From: Christensenellaceae bacterium Phil10
GTDB taxonomy: Bacteria; Bacillota; Clostridia; Christensenellales; CAG-917
Assembly (NCBI GenBank): GCA_001940895.1
Contig: MSGY01000012.1
Location: 1-57,978, forward strand
Direction: 5' to 3'
Length of the DNA stretch: 57,978 bases
The notes under the pieces were generated by a model. It was given only the letters and a program-made list of their open reading frames with translations. It had not been told where the DNA came from and ran no database searches. Of the stretch, positions 14,423-53,885 are shown piece after piece. The position numbers and the translations under genes are program-made. How positions within the stretch are numbered: the first letter of the stretch is position 1; each line of letters begins with the position of its first letter.

Positions 14423-15932
14423 ACGCCAGAGTATTATTTCTTCGGTTGCGGTGGTAACGGGATTTTCCGTTGCGACGCGTCTTATTGCGTTTCTATTTAA
14501 GGTTTTCGTATCGCGCGAACTCGGCGCGGAAGCCGTCGGCGTCTACCAGATGGCGCTGAGCGTATACTTTATGGCTCTGACCGTTGCCGCAAGCGGAATT
14601 CCGACCGTATTAAGCCGAAAAATCGCCGAAGACGAAAAATACGGCGGCGGAAGAACGCCCTCTTACGTTACGTCCGCTTTTCTTATAACCGTGTGCTCTT
14701 CGCTTGCGGTTATGGCCGTTCTTTACCCTGTAGCGACGTTTCTGCCGTCGGCGTTTCCCGACGAAAGGGTTCTTCCTCTCGTTACGATAATGCTGCCGGC
14801 GCTTATCAGCACGTCGGTATACAACGTCGTCAGAAGTTGGTTCTGGGGAAGAAAATCCTTTATCGCATTCAGTTTTACCGAGACGCTGGAGGAAATTCTG
14901 CGTATAGCGTTTACTCTCGTATTTTCTCTCGGAATAATACGCGGATTATCTCCCGTAAAAGGTCTGTCGATAGGTTTTCTGATATCCGACGTAATATGCG
15001 CGTTGGTTCTCGTCGCCTTCTTTTTTATAAGAGGAGGACGGCCCGGGAAGCCCGCATATCCGGGCAGCCTGCTGCGTCCTTCCCTTCCTTTGACTGCCAC
15101 GAGAATTTTCGGCGGCGCCGTAGGCGCTTTCACCGCTCTTATAATTCCTTTGATGCTCGTCAGAAACGGAATGTCCAATGCGGAGGCCTCCGCAACTTTC
15201 GGCCGTGTAACAGGTATGGCGATGCCCCTTCTTATGGCGCCGACGATGCTTACGGGAGCGCTTGCCGTCGTGCTTATACCCGAAATCGCAACCCTGTCGA
15301 AATCCGAAAACGACGCTTTATCCGCACGCATTGACGGAAGTATAAATTTTTCAGTGATAATATCGTCTTTATTTATAATTCTTTACGTACCTCTGGGTAA
15401 AGAAATCAGCGTTTTCGTTTTTAACGACGTTTTTTCGGGCGAGTATCTTTCGAACGCGGCATTACTGCTTTATCCGATAGGACTCAATCAGATTACCGCG
15501 TCGGTACTGAATTCCATGGGTTATGAAAAAAAATCGTTCGTTCACTATGCAATCGGCGCGGCGCTGTTGCTTGTTTGTCTTATCGTCCTGCCCGGATATA
15601 TCGGTATATACGCGGTTGCCGCGGGAAGCGGCTTATGTTTTGCCGTGTCGAGCGCAATGAATCTCTTTCTTATAAACAAAAAAGCAAACGTCTTCCGTAC
15701 GCCGGGAAAAACTTTGCTTTCGTTATTATTCGTATTTCCGGCGGTGGCGCTTGCTTTTTTACTGAAAAATATCCTGCTTTCAAGAATTCCTTTATTTTTC
15801 GTAATCGCAATATCGGGAGGCATTCCCGTACTGCTTTACGCGGCGTGTATAGTTGCCTTCAGAATTGTCGACGTATCGCGTTTTTATCAACGTTTGAATG
15901 GAAAATTTTCGAAAAAACGGGATACAAAATGA
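14409..15932 (+). CDS. SpoVB-family polysaccharide/lipid flippase
   Basis: A 507-residue membrane protein with about 14 helices in the MATE/polysaccharide-transporter fold. The N-terminal GFSVATRLIAFLFKVFVSRELGAEAVGVYQMA and AASGIPTVLSRKIAE regions are typical of the SpoVB/YtgP/MurJ-like branch that flips lipid-linked cell-wall precursors. Which member (sporulation SpoVB or vegetative YtgP) cannot be told. The start overlaps the LysM gene, so both probably act on the envelope. The last 74 bases overlap the 3' end of folT on the opposite strand. Confidence 0.85.
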   Translation: MTGNKRQSIISSVAVVTGFSVATRLIAFLFKVFVSRELGAEAVGVYQMALSVYFMALTVAASGIPTVLSRKIAEDEKYGGGRTPSYVTSAFLITVCSSLAVMAVLYPVATFLPSAFPDERVLPLVTIMLPALISTSVYNVVRSWFWGRKSFIAFSFTETLEEILRIAFTLVFSLGIIRGLSPVKGLSIGFLISDVICALVLVAFFFIRGGRPGKPAYPGSLLRPSLPLTATRIFGGAVGAFTALIIPLMLVRNGMSNAEASATFGRVTGMAMPLLMAPTMLTGALAVVLIPEIATLSKSENDALSARIDGSINFSVIISSLFIILYVPLGKEISVFVFNDVFSGEYLSNAALLLYPIGLNQITASVLNSMGYEKKSFVHYAIGAALLLVCLIVLPGYIGIYAVAAGSGLCFAVSSAMNLFLINKKANVFRTPGKTLLSLLFVFPAVALAFLLKNILLSRIPLFFVIAISGGIPVLLYAACIVAFRIVDVSRFYQRLNGKFSKKRDTK

Positions 15933-16479
15933 GCGTCAGCGCAAAGTTAACCGCCGTTACCGGAGTCTGCGTCCCTGCGCGTACGGCCATATAAGCCCAG
16001 AACGTATTTCCTTTGGCAAGACCCATAAGATACAGGCCGTATGTCGTTATAAAAAGAGTACATACGACAAAAACGAAAACGTAGGACAATGCGATATGAA
16101 AATAAGGCACTGCTTTTTTCGGTCCGGGAATTTTAATATAAGACACAAGTCCCGGAATAACGCCTATAAGAACCGACGAACACAGTATAATGGGATTAGG
16201 AGCATATCCGCCGCCTACGAAACAGCCTATAACGTCACCTATTCCGCCTACCAGTCCGCCGTTAACGGGACCGAAAAAATATCCCGCAAGAAAACAGGTC
16301 GTGTAAGTCAGCGTGATTTTCAGCGTGCCGAGCCGCGGCGAAAAAATACTTACGACAACGTTTACGGCAATGAGAAGCGCAAGATAAGCAATCCTCTGCG
16401 CGGTAAAATAAACCTTTTTTTTCTTCGGAATGCCGGCGCTTTCCACGGCGGTTTCTTCCGAAATATCGTTTTTAACCAT
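15859..16479 (-). CDS. folT: ECF transporter S component for folate (FolT)
   Basis: A 206-residue S component: a cytoplasmic N-terminal segment, then about six membrane helices including the N-terminal block RIAYLALLIAVNVVVS, the internal YFFGPVNGGLVGGIGDVIG motif, and AGTQTPVTAVNFALTLILYP near the end. FolT pairs with the shared ECF energy module (absent here) to import folate. The identification is strongly supported by the tetrahydrofolate riboswitch in its leader. The start at 16479 has GGGAGG upstream; longer versions would run through the riboswitch. Its final 25 codons overlap the flippase gene convergently. Confidence 0.9.
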   Translation of the reverse strand: MVKNDISEETAVESAGIPKKKKVYFTAQRIAYLALLIAVNVVVSIFSPRLGTLKITLTYTTCFLAGYFFGPVNGGLVGGIGDVIGCFVGGGYAPNPIILCSSVLIGVIPGLVSYIKIPGPKKAVPYFHIALSYVFVFVVCTLFITTYGLYLMGLAKGNTFWAYMAVRAGTQTPVTAVNFALTLILYPVFSKIFHSNVDKNAIRRQF

Positions 16480-16483
16480 AAAA

Positions 16484-16539
16484 AAACCTCCCGAAATCAA
16501 CAAGAGGTCCGATGCAATATACGTCCGCACGGCGGACGT
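16484..16539 (-). promoter_or_regulatory. folT riboswitch expression platform
   Basis: Two hairpins follow the aptamer: ACGTCCGC/GCGGACGT (16521-16539) and acctc/gaggt (16504-16508 with 16486-16490), the second burying the Shine-Dalgarno sequence. There is no U-tract, so control is likely at translation initiation. Confidence 0.6.
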
Positions 16540-16544
16540 TTTTC

Positions 16545-16634
16545 GCAGCGAACGCGATAAGCCACCGCAGGTTTCCCTTTCGTTTGCGGGCGACATTCCA
16601 TCCCGCAACACTTAACGCGACTTATCTACTCTGC
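16545..16634 (-). ncRNA. Tetrahydrofolate (THF, folT) riboswitch aptamer
   Basis: The minus-strand leader of folT shows the folT-motif landmarks in order: AGAGTAGATAAG, CGCGTTAAGTGTTGCGGGA, TGGAATGTCGCCCGCAAACG, then CCTGCGGTGGCTTAT and the closing GCGTTCGCT strand. These match the conserved GUAGA, GCGUUAAGUG, GAUGUCGUC and CGGUGAAUC blocks of the class I THF riboswitch as recalled. THF binding would lower folT translation. Confidence 0.92.
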
Positions 16635-16643
16635 TTTTTTTTG

Positions 16644-43304: not shown

Positions 43305-44396
43305 CTATTTTTCAGAGGCTTCGTGTTCGCAATAGGCGCAAAACACCTTTCCCGTTTTATCCTTGTAAAACAGGCGGGACAGTTCCTGTTCGCACTCGCA
43401 GATGCAATGCGGATTCGTACAATCGTATTTATCGGAAACGAAAGTATTTTCCTGAAACGCTCCGTCGTTCTTTTCGGACGACTTGTTTTTTTCAAGCATC
43501 TTGAGAATAAGCGCCATACGCATCAGTTTTCCGTTTACGGTCTGTCTGAAATAGCACGCTCTCGGGTCGTCGTCGACTTTAACCGATATTTCGTTCACTC
43601 TCGGCAACGGGTGCAGAACGATTGTCTCCTTGCCCGCAAGACGCATTTTTTCTTCGGTAAGTATATACGAATCTTTCAGCCTTTCGTACTCTTCCTCGCT
43701 TCCGAACCGTTCTTTCTGAATTCGGGTCATATACAATACGTCAAGGCTGCCGATATTATCCTCAAGGGATTCGCTTTCGATATAAGAAATCCCCTTTTCT
43801 TCGATATAATCACGCTTTACAAACGAAGGCAGTTTCAGTTCCTCGGGAGAAATCAGCACGAATTCGACTCCCTTATAGCGCGACATCGCCGATATCAGCG
43901 AATGAACGGTTCTTCCGTATTTAAGGTCGCCGCAAAAACCGATTTTAAGATTTTCAAACCCGCCCTTCTCGCGGTATATCGTCAGCATGTCGGCAAGGGT
44001 CTGCGTGGGATGATAATGTCCGCCGTCTCCCGCGTTTATGACGGGCACCGACGAATGCCGCACGGCGACGTAAGGAGCGCCTTCTTTCGGATGTCTCATC
44101 GCGATAATATCGACATATCCGGACACCACTTCGACGGTATCGGCGACGCTTTCGCCCTTTGCAGCCGACGAAGTATTCGCTCCCGCTACGCTCACGACGC
44201 CGCCTCCGAGAGAGAGCATTGCCGTTTCGAAACTGAGTCGCGTCCTCGTGGAAGGTTCGAAAAACAGCGTTGCGAGAATTTTATGCTTGCAGGCGTCGCG
44301 GTATTTATCGGGATTTGCGTCTATATCCTCGGCAGTCGCGATAAGTTCTTCGATTTCCTTTTCCGATAAATCGAGAATATTTAAAAGATTTTTCAT
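43305..44396 (-). CDS. pyrB: Aspartate carbamoyltransferase fused to a PyrI-like zinc domain
   Basis: A 363-residue protein. Residues 1-305 are the catalytic chain: FFEPSTRTRLSFE (carbamoyl phosphate), MRHPKEGAP, GDLKYGRTVHSL and HPLPRVNEI (aspartate site). After a linker comes a zinc knuckle with C326-x4-C331 and C353-x2-C356 (CTNPHC and CAYC), very close to the PyrI zinc domain in cysteine spacing. The allosteric nucleotide-binding half of PyrI is missing, and no separate pyrI is in the window. It is last in the UMP operon. ATG 44396 has AGAGGAAAAAT ahead. Confidence 0.93.
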   Translation of the reverse strand: MKNLLNILDLSEKEIEELIATAEDIDANPDKYRDACKHKILATLFFEPSTRTRLSFETAMLSLGGGVVSVAGANTSSAAKGESVADTVEVVSGYVDIIAMRHPKEGAPYVAVRHSSVPVINAGDGGHYHPTQTLADMLTIYREKGGFENLKIGFCGDLKYGRTVHSLISAMSRYKGVEFVLISPEELKLPSFVKRDYIEEKGISYIESESLEDNIGSLDVLYMTRIQKERFGSEEEYERLKDSYILTEEKMRLAGKETIVLHPLPRVNEISVKVDDDPRACYFRQTVNGKLMRMALILKMLEKNKSSEKNDGAFQENTFVSDKYDCTNPHCICECEQELSRLFYKDKTGKVFCAYCEHEASEK

Positions 44397-44420
44397 ATTT
44401 TTCCTCTGTTCATTCAAGAG

Positions 44421-45062
44421 TTACGCTTTTATCCAGCTTTCGTCCGAAGGATTATCCCTGAACGCAATCAGTCTTTTAACGTGGGACGGCGCGACGTATC
44501 CTTCTTCGGCCGCCGCTTTCGCAACCTCGTCGAAATTCGTTAAACTGACGTTTCTAACGTTTTCTGCGGCAAGTCTTTCCGCGCCGCGCTTCATCCCATA
44601 GGTAAAAATACTTACGATTCCCAGCACGTTTGCGCCTTCCTCTTTCAGTGCGTCGACGACTTCCATCACGCTGCCGCCCGTAGAGATTAAATCCTCGACG
44701 ACAACGACTTTCTGACCTTTTTCGAGTTTTCCTTCGATACGGTTCTGCCTTCCGTGGTCTTTTGCGCCCGAACGGACGTAACCCATCGGCAGATTGAGTA
44801 TATGCGCGGTAATGGCGGCGTGCGCTATGCCGGCCGTCGACGTCCCCATAAGGACTTCGGCTTCGGGATATTCCCTTTTTATCGTTTCCGCAAGGGCGTT
44901 TTCAACGTCGTTCCTCACCTCGGGCGCGGTAAGCGTAAGACGGTTGTCGCAATATACGGGGCTTTTAATGCCGCTTGCCCAGACAAAGGGCTCGTCGGGA
45001 CGGAAAAACACGGCCCCTATTTTTAAAAGGTCTTTTGCAATGATTTTTTCTGTATTCTCCAT
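44421..45062 (-). CDS. pyrE: Orotate phosphoribosyltransferase
   Basis: A 213-residue enzyme joining orotate to PRPP to give OMP. It carries the PRPP-binding motif VVVVEDLISTGGS (about residues 118-130), the flexible-loop region RSGAKDHGRQNRIEG and N-terminal WASGIKSPVYCDNR. AAAAGGAGAG lies ahead of the ATG. It is between pyrF and pyrB in the UMP operon. Length is that of the short bacterial type. Confidence 0.96.
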   Translation of the reverse strand: MENTEKIIAKDLLKIGAVFFRPDEPFVWASGIKSPVYCDNRLTLTAPEVRNDVENALAETIKREYPEAEVLMGTSTAGIAHAAITAHILNLPMGYVRSGAKDHGRQNRIEGKLEKGQKVVVVEDLISTGGSVMEVVDALKEEGANVLGIVSIFTYGMKRGAERLAAENVRNVSLTNFDEVAKAAAEEGYVAPSHVKRLIAFRDNPSDESWIKA

Positions 45063-45084
45063 AAAAACACTCTCCTTTTCGCGG

Positions 45085-45786
45085 TTATCTTCCCAAAAAT
45101 TCTTTCAGACAACGTTCGTATGCCTTAACGGGGTCGGAAGCAGCCGTAACGGGTCTGCCGACAACGATATAATCCGACCCGAGTTCCCTTGCTCTTTCAG
45201 GGGTGGCAATGCGTTTCTGGTCCCCTTGTTCGCCTTCGGGAAAACGTACGCCGGGCGTAACGGTAAGAAAACCGTTTCCGCAGAATTCGTGCACTTTTCC
45301 CGCTTCGAGCGGCGAACACACTACGCCGTCAAGTCCCGCGTTTTTTGCGTTTAAGGCATAACTTTTTACGGTATTTTCCATCGTATCGCCTATTAGAAGT
45401 TCGTTTTTCAAAGCGTCCTCGTCGGTGCTTGTAAGTTGCGTTACCGCAATCAGCAGGGGTCTCGTCCCGTCCTCTCTCGTAAGCCCTTTCAGGGCGGCCC
45501 TCATCATACGGCTCGTGCCTGCGGCGTGCAGATTGCACATATCGACTTCCAGCGACGACAGCACTCTCATCGCCTTTTCGACCGTATTTGGAATATCGTG
45601 CAACTTTAAATCGAGAAAAATTTTGTGTCCTCTTTTCTTGATTTCCCTCACAATCGACGGCCCTTCGGCGTAATAGAGTTCCATCCCTATTTTGACGAAA
45701 GGCTTTTCGTCGCCGAACCTATCGAGAAACGCATAAGTTTCTTCCGCGCTTTTAAAATCGAGCGCGATAATTACGTCTTCAGCCAT
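45085..45786 (-). CDS. pyrF: Orotidine 5'-phosphate decarboxylase
   Basis: A 233-residue TIM-barrel enzyme producing UMP, the last step of the pathway. The catalytic FLDLKLHDIPNTVEKAM motif (D-x-K-x-x-D) is intact, with TPGVRFPEGEQGDQKR and VVGRPVTAASDP at the phosphate site. The start overlaps pyrD by eight bases with GGAGGAG as ribosome-binding site, so the two are coupled. Confidence 0.96.
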   Translation of the reverse strand: MAEDVIIALDFKSAEETYAFLDRFGDEKPFVKIGMELYYAEGPSIVREIKKRGHKIFLDLKLHDIPNTVEKAMRVLSSLEVDMCNLHAAGTSRMMRAALKGLTREDGTRPLLIAVTQLTSTDEDALKNELLIGDTMENTVKSYALNAKNAGLDGVVCSPLEAGKVHEFCGNGFLTVTPGVRFPEGEQGDQKRIATPERARELGSDYIVVGRPVTAASDPVKAYERCLKEFLGR

Positions 45787-46696
45787 TGTGTGCTCCTCCT
45801 ATGATATCTTTCAGACTGTTTATGCCGTATTTTTCCATAACCGCGGGCAACGCTTCGACAATCTCCTTCGAGGCGTACGGGTTTATAAGATTGGCGGTGC
45901 CTACTCCTACCGCGCTTGCCCCCGCAAGCATCATTTCGACAACGTCTTCGGCACAGGAAACTCCGCCCATTCCGATAATCGGAATTTTCACCGCCTCGTA
46001 AACCTGATAAACCATTCGCAACGCAACGGGAAAAACGCCCTTTCCCGAATAACCCGCTATTTTATTTGCCACAACGGGCTTTTTGCTTTTCAGGTCGACG
46101 CGCATTCCCGTCATAGTGTTGATAAGCGAAATTCCGTCCGCACCGCCGTCCTCGCACGCTTTTGCGACGGATACTATATCGGTAACGTTTGGCGTGAGTT
46201 TCATGTAAACGGGCTTTTCGGTAACGCTTTTCAGTCTTTTAACTATATTATAAACGTTTTCGCAGGAAGTGCCGTGGGCCATTCCCCCGTCTTTGACGTT
46301 CGGGCAACTCACGTTGATTTCGAGAATTCCGACCTGTTCTTCTTTCCCGAAAGCCTCGGCAAGTCTTGCGTACTCGTCGATATTCGCTCCTCCAAGATTT
46401 GCTATTACCTTTTTCCCGAAATATTTTTTCATTTCGGGAAGTTCCTCCGATATGACGTGCTCCATACCGGGATTCTGCAGACCGATAGAATTTATGATTC
46501 CCGCAGGACATTCGGCTATTCTCGGCGTAGGATTTCCGAATCGCGGTTCGACCGTCGTACCCTTGAACGAGAACGTGCCGAGTATATTGATATCGTACAA
46601 TTCCGCAAATTCTTTGCCGTATCCGAAGGTGCCGCTTGCGGGTATTACGGGATTATCCAGCTCCCACCCCGATAAGGTAACTTTTGTGTCTACCAT
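45779..46696 (-). CDS. pyrD: Dihydroorotate dehydrogenase, type 1B catalytic subunit
   Basis: A 305-residue FMN enzyme oxidising dihydroorotate to orotate. It has PVIPASGTFGYG near the N-terminus, NVSCPNVKDGGMAHG (active-site cysteine of class 1), KLTPNVTDIVSVAKA and MGGVSCAEDVVEMMLAGASAVGVGTA at the FMN phosphate site. With the adjacent PyrK it forms the NAD-linked type 1B heterotetramer. It overlaps pyrK by seven bases and pyrF by eight. Confidence 0.96.
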   Translation of the reverse strand: MVDTKVTLSGWELDNPVIPASGTFGYGKEFAELYDINILGTFSFKGTTVEPRFGNPTPRIAECPAGIINSIGLQNPGMEHVISEELPEMKKYFGKKVIANLGGANIDEYARLAEAFGKEEQVGILEINVSCPNVKDGGMAHGTSCENVYNIVKRLKSVTEKPVYMKLTPNVTDIVSVAKACEDGGADGISLINTMTGMRVDLKSKKPVVANKIAGYSGKGVFPVALRMVYQVYEAVKIPIIGMGGVSCAEDVVEMMLAGASAVGVGTANLINPYASKEIVEALPAVMEKYGINSLKDIIGGAHNG

Positions 46697-47421
46697 ATGA
46701 TTTCTCCTCTTTTCAGCACGGGACCGTCCTTGCAGATACGTTTGCTGCCGTATTTTGTCTTACACGAACATCCCATACACGCGCCGAAGCCGCAACCCAT
46801 GCGCTCCTCAAAACTGTATTCGCCGTCCGATTTTACCGTTTTCTCGACCGCTTTGAACATAGCCTCCGGCCCGCAGGCATAAAAATAGGTATAGTCGAGT
46901 TTTCCGATTACGTCGGTAACGTAACCTTTTATACCGTAGCTTCCGTCGACCGTCGTTACGTGCGTTTCGGCGCCTGCCGCCTTGAATTCGTCCTCGTAAA
47001 ATACCTCGTTACGGCTGTTGAATCCAAGCACCGCAACCGGACGCGCGCCCGCTCTGACGAGCGCCTTGCAAAGCATATACATAGGAGGCACGCCGGCTCC
47101 GCCGCCTATCAGAAGCGGTCTCTTCCCTCCCGCGCCGACGTCGTATCCGTTGCCGAGCCCCGAAAGGACGTCCATCGTTTCTCCCGGGCGTATACGGCTC
47201 ATTATTTCCGTTCCTTTTCCTACCGTTTTATATACGACCGTCAAAATTCCGTTTTCGACGTCGCACACGGATATAGGCCTGCGAAGATAGCATCCTTCAA
47301 CCGCAAAATTCACGAATTGTCCCGGTGCGGTTATCGATGAAAAATCCCCGCTTAAACGCATTTCATAAGTGTTTTCCGCTATTTTCGCGTTTCCTGTTAC
47401 CTTTGGAAAAATTCTTTCCAC
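46690..47421 (-). CDS. pyrK: Dihydroorotate dehydrogenase electron-transfer subunit
   Basis: A 243-residue FAD and 2Fe-2S protein that passes electrons from PyrD to NAD. It has the ferredoxin-reductase fold with RRPISVCDVE (FAD), GGGAGVPPMYMLCKAL (NAD) and the cluster cysteines in MGCGFGACMGCSCKT followed by RICKDGPVL. This matches the PyrK pattern C-x4-C-x2-C-x(n)-C. It sits 61 bases downstream of carB with GGAG-type ribosome-binding sequence, and overlaps pyrD. Confidence 0.95.
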   Translation of the reverse strand: MERIFPKVTGNAKIAENTYEMRLSGDFSSITAPGQFVNFAVEGCYLRRPISVCDVENGILTVVYKTVGKGTEIMSRIRPGETMDVLSGLGNGYDVGAGGKRPLLIGGGAGVPPMYMLCKALVRAGARPVAVLGFNSRNEVFYEDEFKAAGAETHVTTVDGSYGIKGYVTDVIGKLDYTYFYACGPEAMFKAVEKTVKSDGEYSFEERMGCGFGACMGCSCKTKYGSKRICKDGPVLKRGEIIW

Positions 47422-47482
47422 GACTTAACTCCTTTTTAAATTTTTCTGTATTAAAAGCACTTTATCGCCGATAAACAGTTCG

Positions 47483-50400
47483 TTAACTGTCGATTGTGGA
47501 AACACAAAGCGTAGTTTCTTCCAGCACGTCCAGCAATACCCGCACCGTATCGAGCGCGGTAAAGGTGGTGATATTGTTTTCTATAGCGGTTTTTCTGATG
47601 AGATATCCGTCGTTGCTTACGCTGTTTTTCGAGACGTCTCCGGTATTTATTACATAGGCGATATGTCCCTGTCTCAGCGCGTCGGGAATGTCGTGCGAAC
47701 CGTCGCTGATTTTTTTAAGAACGCGCGTTCTTATGCCGTTTTTCTTCAGAAACGCCGCGGTCCCTCCCGTTGCCTCGATATTGAAACCGAGATTATAAAA
47801 TCTTCGCACGAGAGGCAACGCTTCCTCTTTGTCCTTATCGCAGACCGTAACGAGTACGGTGCCGTAATTATGCAGTTTCATACCCGACGCCTGCAACGCC
47901 TTATACAGCGCGCGATTGAGTTTGTCGTCGTAGCCGATTGCCTCGCCCGTCGATTTCATTTCGGGCGAAAGATATGCGTCGAGACCTCTTATCTTCGAGA
48001 ACGAGAATACCGGCACTTTAACGTATCTCCGTTTCTTTTCCTCGGGATAAATTCCGAAAATGCCCTGCTCTTTAAGGCTCTTTCCGAGGATTACTTCTGT
48101 TGCGATATCCGCAAGGGAATATCCCGTAGCTTTGGACAGGAACGGCACGGTGCGCGACGAACGCGGGTTAACCTCGATAATATAAACTCTGTCCTGTTTG
48201 TCCACTATAAACTGAATGTTGAAAAGCCCCACTATGCCGATTGCAAGCCCCAGTTTTTTCGCATATTCGAGTATCGTGCCCTTTACTTTATCGGAAATAC
48301 TGAAAGGAGGATAAACGCTTATGCTGTCTCCGCTGTGAACGCCCGTTTTCTCGACGAGTTCCATTATTCCCGGAACGAAAACGTCCCTGCCGTCGCACAC
48401 GGCATCGACCTCGACTTCTTTTCCGACGATGTATTTGTCCACGAGGACGGGTTTTTCCTCGCTTATCTCGACCGCCGTCTGCAAATATCTGCGAAGTCCT
48501 TCCTCGTCGGCTACAATCTGCATTGCGCGCCCGCCGAGAACGAACGAGGGACGTACGAGAACGGGATATCCCGCTTCCTCTGCCGCTTTGACGCCGTCCT
48601 CGACGTTTGTAACCGCTCTTCCGACGGGTTTCGGAATATCGAGTTTTTCAAGCAGTTTTTCAAAAATATCGCGGTCCTCCGCCTTATCGATGGCGTCGCA
48701 ATCGGTTCCTATTATGTTCACGCCGTTTTCTTTAAGCGATTCGGCAAGATTTATTGCCGTCTGTCCTCCGAGAGACGCAATCACTCCGTACGGTTTTTCA
48801 AGATCGACGACGTTCATGACGTCCTCGGGCGTAAGCGGCTCGAAGTACAGTTTATCCGAAGTCGTGTAGTCGGTTGAAACGGTCTCGGGGTTATTGTTGA
48901 TTATGATTGCCTCGTAACCCGCTTTTTTTATGGTCTGCACCGCGTGCACCGTCGAATAATCGAATTCCACGCCCTGCCCGATACGTATAGGTCCCGCGCC
49001 GAGAACGACGATTTTCTTTTTTCCGCCGTCGGTTTTCGCATCGTTTTCCCGTCCGTCATAGGTGGAATAATAGTAAGGTATATATGCGTCGAATTCCGAC
49101 GCGCACGAGTCGATTGCCTTATATACGGGCAATATTTCGTTCTTTTTACGCATCGAACGCACGGTTTTTTCGTCCGTATTCCACAATCTTGCCACCGCTT
49201 TATCCGAAAATCCGTATTTTTTACATTCTTTAAGCGTTCCTACGTCCATAGGATTTGCTTTCGCTTCGTTTTCGAGCGCTACGATATGCGCGATTTTCGA
49301 TATGAAAAACCTATCGGTTTGCGTAATGCGGGCTATATCCTTTTCGTCCGCTCCTCTGCGCAACAGTTCGGCAATCATAAACAATCTGTCGTCCGTCGCC
49401 TCTTTCACGTATTCCCACAGTTCGGAAAGGGTCATCGATTCGGCCTTGCGGGAAAACAGGTGATACGCGCCGATTTCAAGCGAACGCACCGCTTTAAGAA
49501 GACTTTCCTCGAAGTTTCTTCCCACGCTCATTACTTCTCCCGTAGCCTTCATCTGCGTTGAAAGACGATTGCTCGCGCCCGCAAACTTATCGAACGGGAA
49601 ACGTGGCATTTTAGTTACCACGTAATCGAGCGACGGCTCGAAACATGCGGGAGTATTCGGAAGTTGAATTTCGTCGAGAGTAAGTCCGACTGCTATTTTT
49701 GCCGACACTCTCGCAATGGGAAACCCGCTTGCCTTGCTTGCAAGCGCCGACGAACGGGACACTCTCGGATTAACCTCGATAACGTAATAATCGAAGGAGT
49801 TCGGGTCAAGTGCGAACTGTACGTTGCATCCTCCCTCTATTTTCAGCGCCCTTATTATTTTCAGCGCGCTGTTGCGGAGCATCTGATACTCTTTGTTGGT
49901 AAGCGTCTGACTGGGACAAACGACGACGGAATCTCCCGTGTGAACGCCTACGGGGTCGACGTTTTCCATATTGCAGACCGTTATCGCGGTATCTGCCGAA
50001 TCCCTTATGACTTCGTATTCGATTTCTTTGAAACCTTTTACGCTTTTTTCAATCAACACCTGTCCTACGGGCGATAATTCGAGCGCGTTTTCAAGCAGCG
50101 CGGACAGTTCGTTTTCGTCGGACGCAAATCCACCGCCCGTGCCGCCGAGCGTGAACGCGGGACGAAGAACGACGGGAAAACCTATTCTTTTTGCCGCGGC
50201 AATGCCCTCTTCGAAACTTTCGGCAATTTCGGAAGGACACACCGGTTCGCCTATTCTTTCGCACAGTTCTTTGAACAATTCACGGTCCTCTGCCGTTTCT
50301 ATGCTTTCGCTTTTGGTGCCGAGAAGTTCGACGCCGCATTCTTTAAGCACGCCTTTTTTCTCAAGTTGCATCGCAAGATTGAGTCCCGTCTGCCCGCCTA

Positions 50401-50668
50401 TGCCCGGTATAATCGCGTCGGGTCTCTCGTAACGAATGATTTTAGCCGTGTATTCGAGGGTCAGAGGCTCCATATATACCTTGTCGGCAATCATCGTATC
50501 CGTCATAATGGTGGCCGGATTCGAGTTGCACAGCACGACCTCGTATCCCTCTTCTTTAAGCGCTATGCAGGCCTGCGTTCCCGCATAATCGAATTCCGCG
50601 GCCTGACCTATCACGATAGGGCCGCTGCCGATTACCATAATCTTTTTCAAATCCTTTCTGTTGGGCAT
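47483..50668 (-). CDS. carB: Carbamoyl-phosphate synthase large subunit
   Basis: A 1061-residue enzyme made of two homologous ATP-grasp halves: [20 protein letters not shown] in the first and [18 protein letters not shown] in the second. The C-terminal MGS-like domain (from about 930) is the usual site of allosteric control by UMP or ornithine. It makes carbamoyl phosphate for PyrB with ammonia from CarA. Length is normal. It starts four bases after the carA stop. Whether arginine genes share this enzyme cannot be told here. Confidence 0.97.
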
Positions 50669-50672
50669 AGTT

Positions 50673-51758
50673 TTATTTCCTTTTCATCATTTTTACGAAT
50701 TGGTCGAACAAATAGCCGCTGTCCTCCGGGCCGGGCGCGCTTTCGGGATGATATTGCACCGAAAACACTCCGTCTTTTTCGCAACGCAATCCTTCGACCG
50801 TACCGTCAAGCAGGTTTACGTGCGTGATTTCAAGCCCCGTGCCGTCAATTGACGACGCGTCCACGGCGTAACTGTGATTCTGCGACGTGATTTCGACTTT
50901 GCCGGTAAGAAGATTCTTGACGGGATGATTGCCTCCTCTGTGGCCGAATTTGAGTTTATACGTTTTCGCGCCGTACGCGAGAGCAATCATCTGATGTCCG
51001 AGACAAATACCGAAAACGGGAATTTTCCCTTTCATCTTTTTCACGAGTTCTATGACGGGCGTAACGTCGACGGGGTCTCCGGGACCGTTTGACAAAAACA
51101 GTCCGTCGGGTTTCATCTTTTCAATCTGCGAAGCCGGCGTGTCGTACGGAAAAACCGTAACGTCGCAACCTCGCTTGTTGAGAGAACGCAATATGTTCAG
51201 TTTGATTCCGCAGTCAATCGCCGCGACTTTATATTTCGGATTTACAGCGGGCGAAAGCCAAGGTTTTACGGTGGATACGGTAGAAACGGCGTCCTTTCTT
51301 TCGGGCGTCACGGATATTCTTTTCAGCCCCTCCTCAACGCTCACGTCTGCGGAAGTTATAATTCCTTTTCTGCTTCCGAAATCGCGGATGCTTCTTGCGA
51401 GTTTGCGCGTATCTATCCCCTCGATTCCGGGAATACCGCACTCCTCGAGCCATTCCGACAGCGTCTTTTCACTGCGGAAATTAGAAGGCTCGTCGTTATA
51501 TTCGGACACTATCAGCGCGCCGAGCGTAGGCGTTACCGTTTCGTTATCGTCTTTATTTATGCCGTAATTCCCGATTAAAGGATAAGTCGCAACCACTCCC
51601 TGAAAAGTATACGACGGGTCCGAAACGATTTCCTGATACCCCGCCATAGAAGTGTTGAAAACTATTTCAAGCACTCTTTCCTCTTTCGCGCCGAAAGCGT
51701 AGCCGTAATATTCGCTTCCGTCCTCCATTATAAGTTTTCTATCATACTGTCTTGCCAT
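50673..51758 (-). CDS. carA: Carbamoyl-phosphate synthase small subunit
   Basis: A 361-residue glutaminase subunit. The N-terminal CPSase domain includes [17 protein letters not shown]. The C-terminal class I amidotransferase has [31 protein letters not shown] (nucleophile cysteine in GICLGHQ) and the histidine-glutamate pair in [17 protein letters not shown] 51758 has GGAGGGAAGG upstream and fits the family start. The gene begins 31 bases before the end of pyrC, so it is coupled. Confidence 0.96.
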
Positions 51759-52969
51759 ACGACCTTCCCTCCGCATACCGTCAAAATGCATTTTCCATAT
51801 ACTTCTTCGCCGTCAAACGGCGTACTTTTTCCTTTTGACAAAAACTCCCGTGAGTTTATTCTGAACGGCGTTTTTAAATCGAATATCGCAAAATCGTCTC
51901 TGCTTTTCGGTAACCCGAATCTTTCTCTGGGATTCACGCACATCAGTTTTATCAGCGTTTCAAGCGATATTTCGCCCGTCTTTACAAGCTTCGTGTACAT
52001 AACGGGAAACGCGGTTTCCAATCCCGTTATGCCAAACGCGCTTCCCTTCAGCCCCTTCGATTTTTCCTCCGCCGAATGGGGTGCGTGGTCGGTTGCTATC
52101 ATATCGACGGTGCCGTCTTTGATTCCGTCGATAAGCGCTCTCCTGTCGCTTTCGGAACGAACGGGAGGATTCATTTTAAACCTTCCGTCTTCTTTAAGGT
52201 CGTTTTCGGTCAGAACGAGATAATGCGGCGCAGTCTCACAGGTTACGTCGATACCCTGCCTTTTTGCCCGCCTTATTTCCTCGACGCTCTCTTTCGTCGA
52301 TACGTGGCAAACGTGAAACTTCGCTCCCGTCTCCCCGGCCAGCGCGACGTCCCTCGCAACGGCTGCGAACTCGCTTGCCGAAGATATACCTTTATGATTA
52401 TGCGCCTTTGCGTACGCTCCGTCGTGGATATATCCTCCGAAAAGCAGAGTTTCGTCCTCGCAATGAGCCGCTATAACTTTGTTCATCCGCTTTGCCTCAA
52501 TCATCGCTTCCCTCATTACGTCCGCGTTCCGTACGCCTTTGCCGTCGTCCGAAAAAGCACAGACGAAAGGGGCGATTTCTTCCATATCCGAAAGTTTTTC
52601 GCCTTTTTCGGATTTTGTTATCGACCCGTACGGATACACGGCTATCGTCGCGTCTTTTTTAATGATTTCCGCTTGAATTCCGAGATTTTCTGCACAATCG
52701 GGTACGGGCGAGAGATTCGGCATCGTACAGACGGCGGTGTATCCGCCCCTTGCCGCGGCCTCTGTTCCCGTCAATATGGTTTCTTTATATGAAAAACCCG
52801 GCTCTCTGAAATGGACGTGAACGTCGCACAAGCCGGGTAAAACCGCAATCTCTCCGTCGTCCGAAATCACGGGAACGGAAACGTCGTTTTGAATATAGCG
52901 CTGTATCAGATAATCGTACCGTCGGGAAAGGTCAGGGTCGTTTTGCCGTTTAATATCGCTTTTAAGCAT
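51728..52969 (-). CDS. pyrC: Dihydroorotase
   Basis: A 413-residue amidohydrolase closing the dihydroorotate ring. The zinc ligands and substrate residues lie in LPGLCDVHVHFREPGFSYKET, AAHCEDE, FHVCHVST and ATDHAPHSAEEK. ATG 52969 has AGAGGAGAG ahead. The first 40 residues (SDIKRQNDPDLSRRYDYLIQ) do not resemble the usual N-terminal strands (a K-N-x-x-I-I-D pattern), so the small beta-sandwich domain is shortened or divergent; the active site is complete. First gene of the UMP operon, behind a structured leader. Confidence 0.93.
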   Translation of the reverse strand: MLKSDIKRQNDPDLSRRYDYLIQRYIQNDVSVPVISDDGEIAVLPGLCDVHVHFREPGFSYKETILTGTEAAARGGYTAVCTMPNLSPVPDCAENLGIQAEIIKKDATIAVYPYGSITKSEKGEKLSDMEEIAPFVCAFSDDGKGVRNADVMREAMIEAKRMNKVIAAHCEDETLLFGGYIHDGAYAKAHNHKGISSASEFAAVARDVALAGETGAKFHVCHVSTKESVEEIRRAKRQGIDVTCETAPHYLVLTENDLKEDGRFKMNPPVRSESDRRALIDGIKDGTVDMIATDHAPHSAEEKSKGLKGSAFGITGLETAFPVMYTKLVKTGEISLETLIKLMCVNPRERFGLPKSRDDFAIFDLKTPFRINSREFLSKGKSTPFDGEEVYGKCILTVCGGKVVWQDSMIENL

Positions 52970-52993
52970 TCTCTCCTCTTTGCACCGCGGCAT

Positions 52994-53018
52994 AAAAAAA
53001 CTTGCCGTATCCGACAAG
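52994..53018 (-). terminator. Attenuator in the pyrC leader
   Basis: Minus strand CTTGTC, six-base loop, GGCAAG (one G-U pair), then seven T residues. It lies 25 bases ahead of the pyrC start, inside the transcript. Its 5' arm is also part of the competing long helix described for the leader. Confidence 0.75.
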
Positions 53019-53115
53019 ACCGCACAACGTATCGTTACGTTGCAAAACTCAGGGATTGCTCTCCCTTTTTTTACGTTTCAATCTTATCGGCATCTCTGTG
53101 CGCGTTTAAAAATTT
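53000..53115 (-). promoter_or_regulatory. Structured pyrC leader with mutually exclusive helices
   Basis: On the minus strand CCGATAAGA (53082-53090) pairs with TCTTGTCGG (53011-53019) over nine bases including one G-U. The helix encloses AGGGA/TCCCT (53051-53055 with 53062-53066) and CAACGTA/TACGTTG (53025-53031 with 53036-53042). The 3' strand of the long helix overlaps the 5' arm of the terminator, so only one can form: the arrangement of a riboswitch, protein-binding antiterminator or translation-linked attenuator. No known class (PyrR-type loop, T-box, PRPP) was recognised. Confidence 0.65.
53049..53093 (-). CDS. Possible leader peptide of the pyr operon
   Basis: A 14-codon frame (MPIRLKRKKRESNP) runs from ATG at 53093 to TGA at 53049, inside the pyrC leader. 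ACAGAG just before it is a weak ribosome-binding site. Its start codon touches the 5' strand of the antiterminator-like helix, so a translating ribosome would disrupt that helix. It may also be chance. No family exists at this length. Confidence 0.3.
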   Translation of the reverse strand: MPIRLKRKKRESNP

Positions 53116-53121
53116 CGATTT

Positions 53122-53150
53122 ATTATAACCCCTTTTAAAAAATATATCAA
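53122..53150 (-). promoter_or_regulatory. pyr operon promoter
   Basis: Minus strand TTGATA (53145-53150), 17 bases, TATAAT (53122-53127). Transcription should start near 53115, leaving a leader of about 145 bases. Confidence 0.75.
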
Positions 53151-53399
53151 GGAAACTACCGCCGTTTTTCAAAAAAATTTTATACGCCTCTTATAATCCC
53201 CCCAAAACCTGCTTTAATAAAACGCGCGTGACCAAATCGCGCGGCGCCTATAAAGTCCCGGCAATAAACAAACTTAATAACTAAATAATGTCAACTCTTT
53301 ATAAGCGGTTTTCAGAACCGTTTATCCACGTCCTCTGCCGCGGCAACGCATTGTTTCGCCGCTCTTTTTAAATTGTTTTCAAAATATTCGCAATAAAAG
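53151..53399. other. Intergenic region between pyr operon and tRNA-Ser
   Basis: No gene seen. It contains a 17-base sequence (53159-53175) repeated at 54561-54577, GC-rich inverted sequence around 53222-53242 (cgcgcg either side of tgaccaaat), and a small hairpin cggtt/aaccg (53306-53310 with 53316-53320). Confidence 0.4.
53159..53175 (+). repeat. 17-base direct repeat, left copy
   Basis: ccgccgtttttcaaaaa, identical to 54561-54577. The two copies bracket the tRNA-Ser, the decayed gene and the DUF3592 gene. Confidence 0.5.
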
Positions 53400-53462: not shown

Positions 53463-53553
53463 GGAGAGATATCGAAGTGGTCATAACGAGCCGCACTCGA
53501 AATGCGGTCGTCAGGAAACTGGCGCAAGGGTTCGAATCCCTTTCTCTCCGCCA
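53463..53553 (+). tRNA. tRNA-Ser (anticodon CGA), CCA encoded
   Basis: A 7-bp acceptor stem GGAGAGA/TCTCTCC, D arm with AGTGGTCATAACGA, anticodon stem ccgca/tgcgg with loop CTCGAAA (anticodon CGA at 53498-53500), a long class II variable arm (gtcaggaaactggc) and T arm GGGTTCGAATCCC, followed by G and CCA (53551-53553). It reads UCG, a codon used heavily in this window. A reading frame on the opposite strand here is only its shadow. Confidence 0.96.
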
Positions 53554-53554
53554 C

Positions 53555-53600
53555 AAGCACCCAATTTGAACTTTAAGGGTTCAAACGGGGTGCTTTCTTT
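53555..53600 (+). terminator. tRNA-Ser terminator
   Basis: Outer arms aagcaccc/gggtgctt and inner arms tttgaac/gttcaaa stack into one long hairpin, followed by a T-rich tract. Confidence 0.85.
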
Positions 53601-53885
53601 ATTTTCCGCATCTTTTTCGGCTTTTTTGTTACTTAAATCGCGTAAAGACTGCAATTCTTCTTTTTCCAACTTTACTTTTGTCGGATATTCGGGCGAAGTG
53701 TTGTAGAAAATGTAGTTATAAGCATTATATCGATAATCTGTCCGTGTGTCGTCAACTTTTCGCACGTTTGGTTTTTAAAAACCTTCGGTGTCAATGACAT
53801 ATTTGTCCAAGTCGGGTATGCTGACATATACGCCGATATCGTTACCTATGGCATAGCTATCGCTTCCGTTAAGAAACGCCTTTTG
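53601..53885 (-). pseudogene. Remnant of an unidentified gene
   Basis: One minus-strand frame runs from after a stop at 53886-53888 down toward the tRNA with a single internal TAA (53775-53777). Before the stop it reads NGSDSYAIGNDIGVYVSIPD then LDKYVIDTEGF. After it, in the same frame, come DYRYNAYNYIFYNTSPEYP and a helical KLEKEELQSLRDLSNKKAEK. Protein-like composition on both sides of one stop, with no start codon, suggests a decayed gene. The family was not recognised. Confidence 0.4.

Follow-up and report, generated by a model that had tools for sequence, protein, structure and literature searches.

We found that the leader of the UMP operon in Christensenellaceae bacterium Phil10 is almost certainly a PyrR-dependent transcription attenuator, a divergent copy of a known type. 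The leader is read from the minus strand of the window, the whole 57,978-nucleotide stretch of contig MSGY01000012.1 that was analysed, and precedes eight genes in the order pyrC-carA-carB-pyrK-pyrD-pyrF-pyrE-pyrB. By their NCBIfam names these genes are complete for UMP synthesis, in agreement with the original prediction of a whole UMP operon downstream, and some of the adjacent reading frames overlap slightly. That prediction, made from the window, took the leader for an undescribed regulatory RNA. Its central idea, that alternative helices which exclude each other attenuate transcription in response to pyrimidines, is supported, but the leader can no longer be called undescribed, since it carries a PyrR binding loop, the genome encodes pyrR, and homologous pyrC leaders from other Clostridia reach the Rfam cut-off for the PyrR family. 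The anatomy of the leader, its conservation and covariation among relatives, and the presence of pyrR were all observed directly in this analysis.

The features of the leader and its operon are collected in Table 1. Judging from the promoter (TTGATA-17-TATAAT), transcription would begin near 53115, at the base of the predicted binding loop. This loop, which had not been recognised originally, is a two-tier hairpin with a lower stem of 6 bp (53114-53109/53085-53080), an internal loop UAAA/AU, an upper stem of 5 bp with one bulged C (53102), and a hexaloop CAGAGA (53098-53093) that fits CNGNGA. The same two-tier hairpin is the minimum-energy fold of the isolated segment 53116-53077, and all the features by which the binding loop of a PyrR attenuator is recognised, namely a purine-containing internal loop, the CNGNGA hexaloop and both stems, are present. 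The 9-bp long-range helix around two hairpins proposed originally has the sequence described, with CCGATAAGA (53090-53082) paired to TCTTGTCGG (53019-53011), and extends to 12 bp (53090-53079 with 53022-53011) when G-U pairs are counted. Also as described, its 3' strand overlaps a terminator at the 5' arm, and seven U residues follow the terminator hairpin, which has the sequence CTTGTCG-GATA-CGGCAAG (53018-53001) and an energy of -8.4 kcal/mol. The 3' strand of the binding loop can pair alternatively with the terminator 5' arm, which is the three-state layout of PyrR systems, and the intrinsic terminator stands ahead of the pyrimidine genes. On the opposite strand, a short terminator-like hairpin at 53051-53073 (+) within the leader spacer is at chance level.

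Table 1. Features of the pyr leader and the operon behind it (positions in the window)
Feature	Positions	Strand	Basis
Promoter, sigma-70-type, TTGATA-17-TATAAT	53122..53150	minus	11/12 consensus matches
Predicted PyrR binding loop (anti-antiterminator)	53080..53114	minus	segment fold, held-out model R1, sub-threshold RF00515
Antiterminator 5' strand (binding-loop 3' strand)	53079..53090	minus	12 pairs with 53022-53011
Spacer inside antiterminator, two hairpins GGGAgagcaaTCCC and CAACGTaacgatACGTTG	53023..53078	minus	folds; variable in relatives
Antiterminator 3' strand, overlapping terminator 5' arm	53011..53022	minus	pairing with 53090-53079
Intrinsic terminator	52994..53018	minus	7-bp hairpin 53018-53001, then T7 53000-52994
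pyrC, dihydroorotase, first operon gene	51728..52969	minus	NCBIfam
carA, carB, pyrK, pyrD, pyrF, pyrE, pyrB, rest of operon	43305..51791	minus	NCBIfam and ORFs

In a permissive Rfam scan, the PyrR binding site model RF00515 aligned with the whole leader end to end (53116-52992) at 24.1 bits, short of its gathering cut-off of 54 bits. A confident match to a known family had been named beforehand as the outcome that would speak against a new RNA, and RF00515 is such a match in substance, though not in score. In line with the original prediction, no T-box or riboswitch model of Rfam matched within 52850-53300 at E <= 10, and both of these readings were dropped; matches to CRISPR-DR5, SECIS_3 and rli43 near the leader are at chance level. 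R1 is a calibrated covariance model of 38 distinct pyrC-leader loops from relatives, from which the window was left out. Its best match in the window is 53119-53076 (27.5 bits, E 0.004). Across the genome at E <= 10 it has two matches only, the leader of pyrR (31.6 bits, E 0.011) and the leader of pyrC (27.5 bits, E 0.07). These E-values are modest singly, and the strong point is that the only two matches precede pyrR and the UMP operon. RF00515 has further weak matches in the genome (L003-L007, 17.6-27.5 bits). We discarded these, since R1 does not match them and their sequences, in the parts that were read, resemble terminator hairpins without a CNGNGA loop.

The pyrR gene, which the original reading could not have seen from the window, is located on a contig other than that of the UMP operon (G000:C23:47101-47625). 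Its product scores 245 bits, where the cut-off is 138, and the nearest solved relatives of this product are PyrR proteins. The leader immediately upstream of pyrR matches the one in the window, with its own binding loop, antiterminator and terminator, and itself scores 42.8 bits with RF00515, below the cut-off of 54. The lower R1 score of the pyrC leader compared with this pyrR leader, along with a bulged C in the upper stem that is missing from the aligned relatives, might suggest decay: a lower stem rich in A-U and G-U pairs together with the bulge would have cost PyrR binding and left a constitutive partial terminator. Decay is nonetheless very improbable, given an intact hexaloop, lower stem, antiterminator and terminator and, ahead of them, a promoter close to consensus.

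A PyrR-dependent attenuator would be expected to work as follows. When pyrimidines are scarce, the long antiterminator helix would form in the growing transcript and hide the terminator 5' arm, so that the UMP operon would be transcribed. With ample UMP or UTP, nucleotide-bound PyrR would stabilise the weak binding-loop hairpin, which would take up the antiterminator 5' strand, and the terminator could then form and stop transcription before pyrC. We infer the binding of PyrR, its UMP or UTP ligand, and the direction of control from Bacillus subtilis, where the anti-antiterminator contains ARUCCAGAGAGGYU and is stabilised by PyrR-UMP so that the terminator forms (PMC7430163). While the terminator is incomplete, the antiterminator state is calculated at -31.4 kcal/mol versus -21.1 kcal/mol for the binding-loop state, and thus read-through would be the default. 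With the terminator completed, the state with binding loop and terminator (-30.2 kcal/mol) comes close to the antiterminator (-33.3 kcal/mol). Stabilisation of the binding loop by a protein could shift this balance toward termination, and by homology this protein would be PyrR with UMP or UTP. It is conceivable, albeit unlikely, that the variant with the bulged upper stem is recognised by its own PyrR otherwise than the Bacillus type, and that the pyrR and pyrC leaders respond at different pyrimidine levels.

That the leader looked new is explained by the Rfam cut-off, which leaves most leaders of its type in this order undetected. In a set of 297 genomes from the order, 126 of them with pyrR, RF00515 exceeded its gathering score in 2 and reached E <= 0.001 in 47. 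Since it rejects all but 2 of these genomes as well as the pyrR leader described above, the cut-off delimits the family poorly in this clade. R1 matched (E <= 0.01) in 72 of the 297, and 69 of these 72 carry pyrR, as do 57 of the 225 genomes without an R1 match. This association across the order is clear (Fisher p about 2e-28, a value that ignores shared ancestry and whose significance is inflated by it). The genome of the window is absent from this list because its matches are weak under the stricter filters used there. An undescribed metabolite-sensing riboswitch, in which UMP, UTP, PRPP or orotate would bind directly to the leader and shift the helices without a protein, would agree with the leader's score below the Rfam cut-off and with an antiterminator/terminator geometry that would suit any sensor. 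However, the held-out model identifies the sensor region as the PyrR binding loop, the element keeps company with pyrR in the proportion just given, homologous leaders belong to RF00515, and the spacer, being variable, offers no further conserved aptamer among the relatives viewed; a riboswitch is thus extremely unlikely.

The case for a PyrR-dependent attenuator rests on comparative evidence and not on the fold of a single leader. Taken alone, the structure is only suggestive, because 23 of 500 Markov-shuffled leaders give a helix equally long and equally far apart, and the fold of the whole leader exceeds shuffles in stability by only about 2 SD (z-score about -2). For comparison, we took 80 pyrC genes of relatives from public genomes and looked for the motif TTTAA-N4-9-CNGNGA within 420 bases upstream. 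The motif was present in 44 of the 80, compared with 2.8% of shuffled regions and none of the 80 on the opposite strand. When the 38 distinct loops were aligned, the two-stem structure formed in 93.5% of cells; because the loops were chosen by motif, the TTTAA and CNGNGA columns are fixed, whereas the 3' strands of the stems are not. Both-sided changes occur at 8 of the 11 pairs, and the covariation score is 0.368 versus 0.209 for shuffled alignments, with 0 of 500 shuffles as high; the signal is lost when partners are slid. The comparison of pyrC leaders from relatives, which had been put forward with the original prediction, revealed compensatory changes in the binding loop. In addition, for the 41 leaders in which a terminator could be recognised, own antiterminator arms pair better (mean -10.9 kcal/mol) than swapped arms (-9.1 kcal/mol), with none of 20,000 permutations as good (shared ancestry ignored), and the terminator arm of the window is the best partner for its own loop among all 41. 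Two of the 20 relatives' loci scanned exceed the gathering score of RF00515, both in the pyrC leader (L106, 65.9 bits; L157, 54.9 bits). Chance hairpins next to an ordinary terminator, without regulation, would fit the shuffling results but are already contradicted by the comparison, in which relatives carry the element at the corresponding position and with compensatory changes, and have a negligible probability.

Not all relatives share the same arrangement. Loop-arm pairing is absent in several leaders (e.g., L091, L096 and L112), and therefore the exact antiterminator differs among relatives. The pyrC leaders L118, L120, L122, L133, L139 and L141 have a PyrR loop, with scant pairing between loop and terminator arm in some of them, and this group may use an alternative antiterminator, CAAGATCT with GGATTTTG. 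Within the same family, a similar leader on pyrC was seen in just one further genus (three genomes, in which pyrR and pyrC are adjacent); most family members are without pyrR, and in those that carry it the motif was not seen immediately ahead of pyrC.

Some other features of the window were observed. The pyrB gene (43305-44417, minus) encodes an aspartate carbamoyltransferase with a C-terminal extension (residues 304-368) matching the zinc-binding part of PyrI, and its product, judged from sequence, is a PyrB-PyrI partial fusion. Divergent from the pyr operon lies a tRNA-Ser (CGA) gene (53463-53553, plus), which is overlapped by an 84-aa ORF (53511-53765, minus) that is probably spurious. The sole riboswitch found in the window, away from the pyr leader, is a THF element (RF01831, 75.8 bits) at 16544-16635 (minus). 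It overlaps the start of a membrane-protein ORF (15859-16611, minus) that resembles the S component of a folate ECF transporter (FolT), and the true start codon of this ORF is probably internal. A THF riboswitch and a folate transporter are a known pairing.

In summary, the leader belongs, as a divergent member, to a regulatory kind already known; it is ordinary biology missed by a standard cut-off. This offers a probable explanation for control of the whole UMP pathway in an uncultured clostridial lineage and removes one candidate new RNA. Since the PyrR cut-off of Rfam misses most attenuators in the order, such leaders can pass for orphan regulatory RNAs, and recalibrating RF00515 with clostridial leaders would fix this under-detection.

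Like RF00515 and the pyr attenuators of B. subtilis, the leader has a CNGNGA hexaloop, an internal loop and a lower stem. As in the B. subtilis pyr system, the 3' strand of the loop is common to the antiterminator, a terminator stands before the coding sequence, the targets are pyrimidine biosynthesis genes, and PyrR is encoded in the genome. Unlike RF00515, the sequence of the leader is divergent and its score is under the Rfam cut-off, and the upper stem is GCA/UGC with a bulged C in place of the B. subtilis ARUCCAGAGAGGYU core. Whereas the B. subtilis pyr operon has three attenuators, a single one precedes the operon here, and pyrR, with a leader to itself, is on another contig. The pyrR-pyrC leaders of a sister genus within the family (L008-L010) share the binding-loop core ACAGAGATGCCGAYAAG with the window and also have an antiterminator and a terminator, but in these genomes one leader serves adjacent pyrR and pyrC, whereas here pyrR and the pyrC operon have one each.
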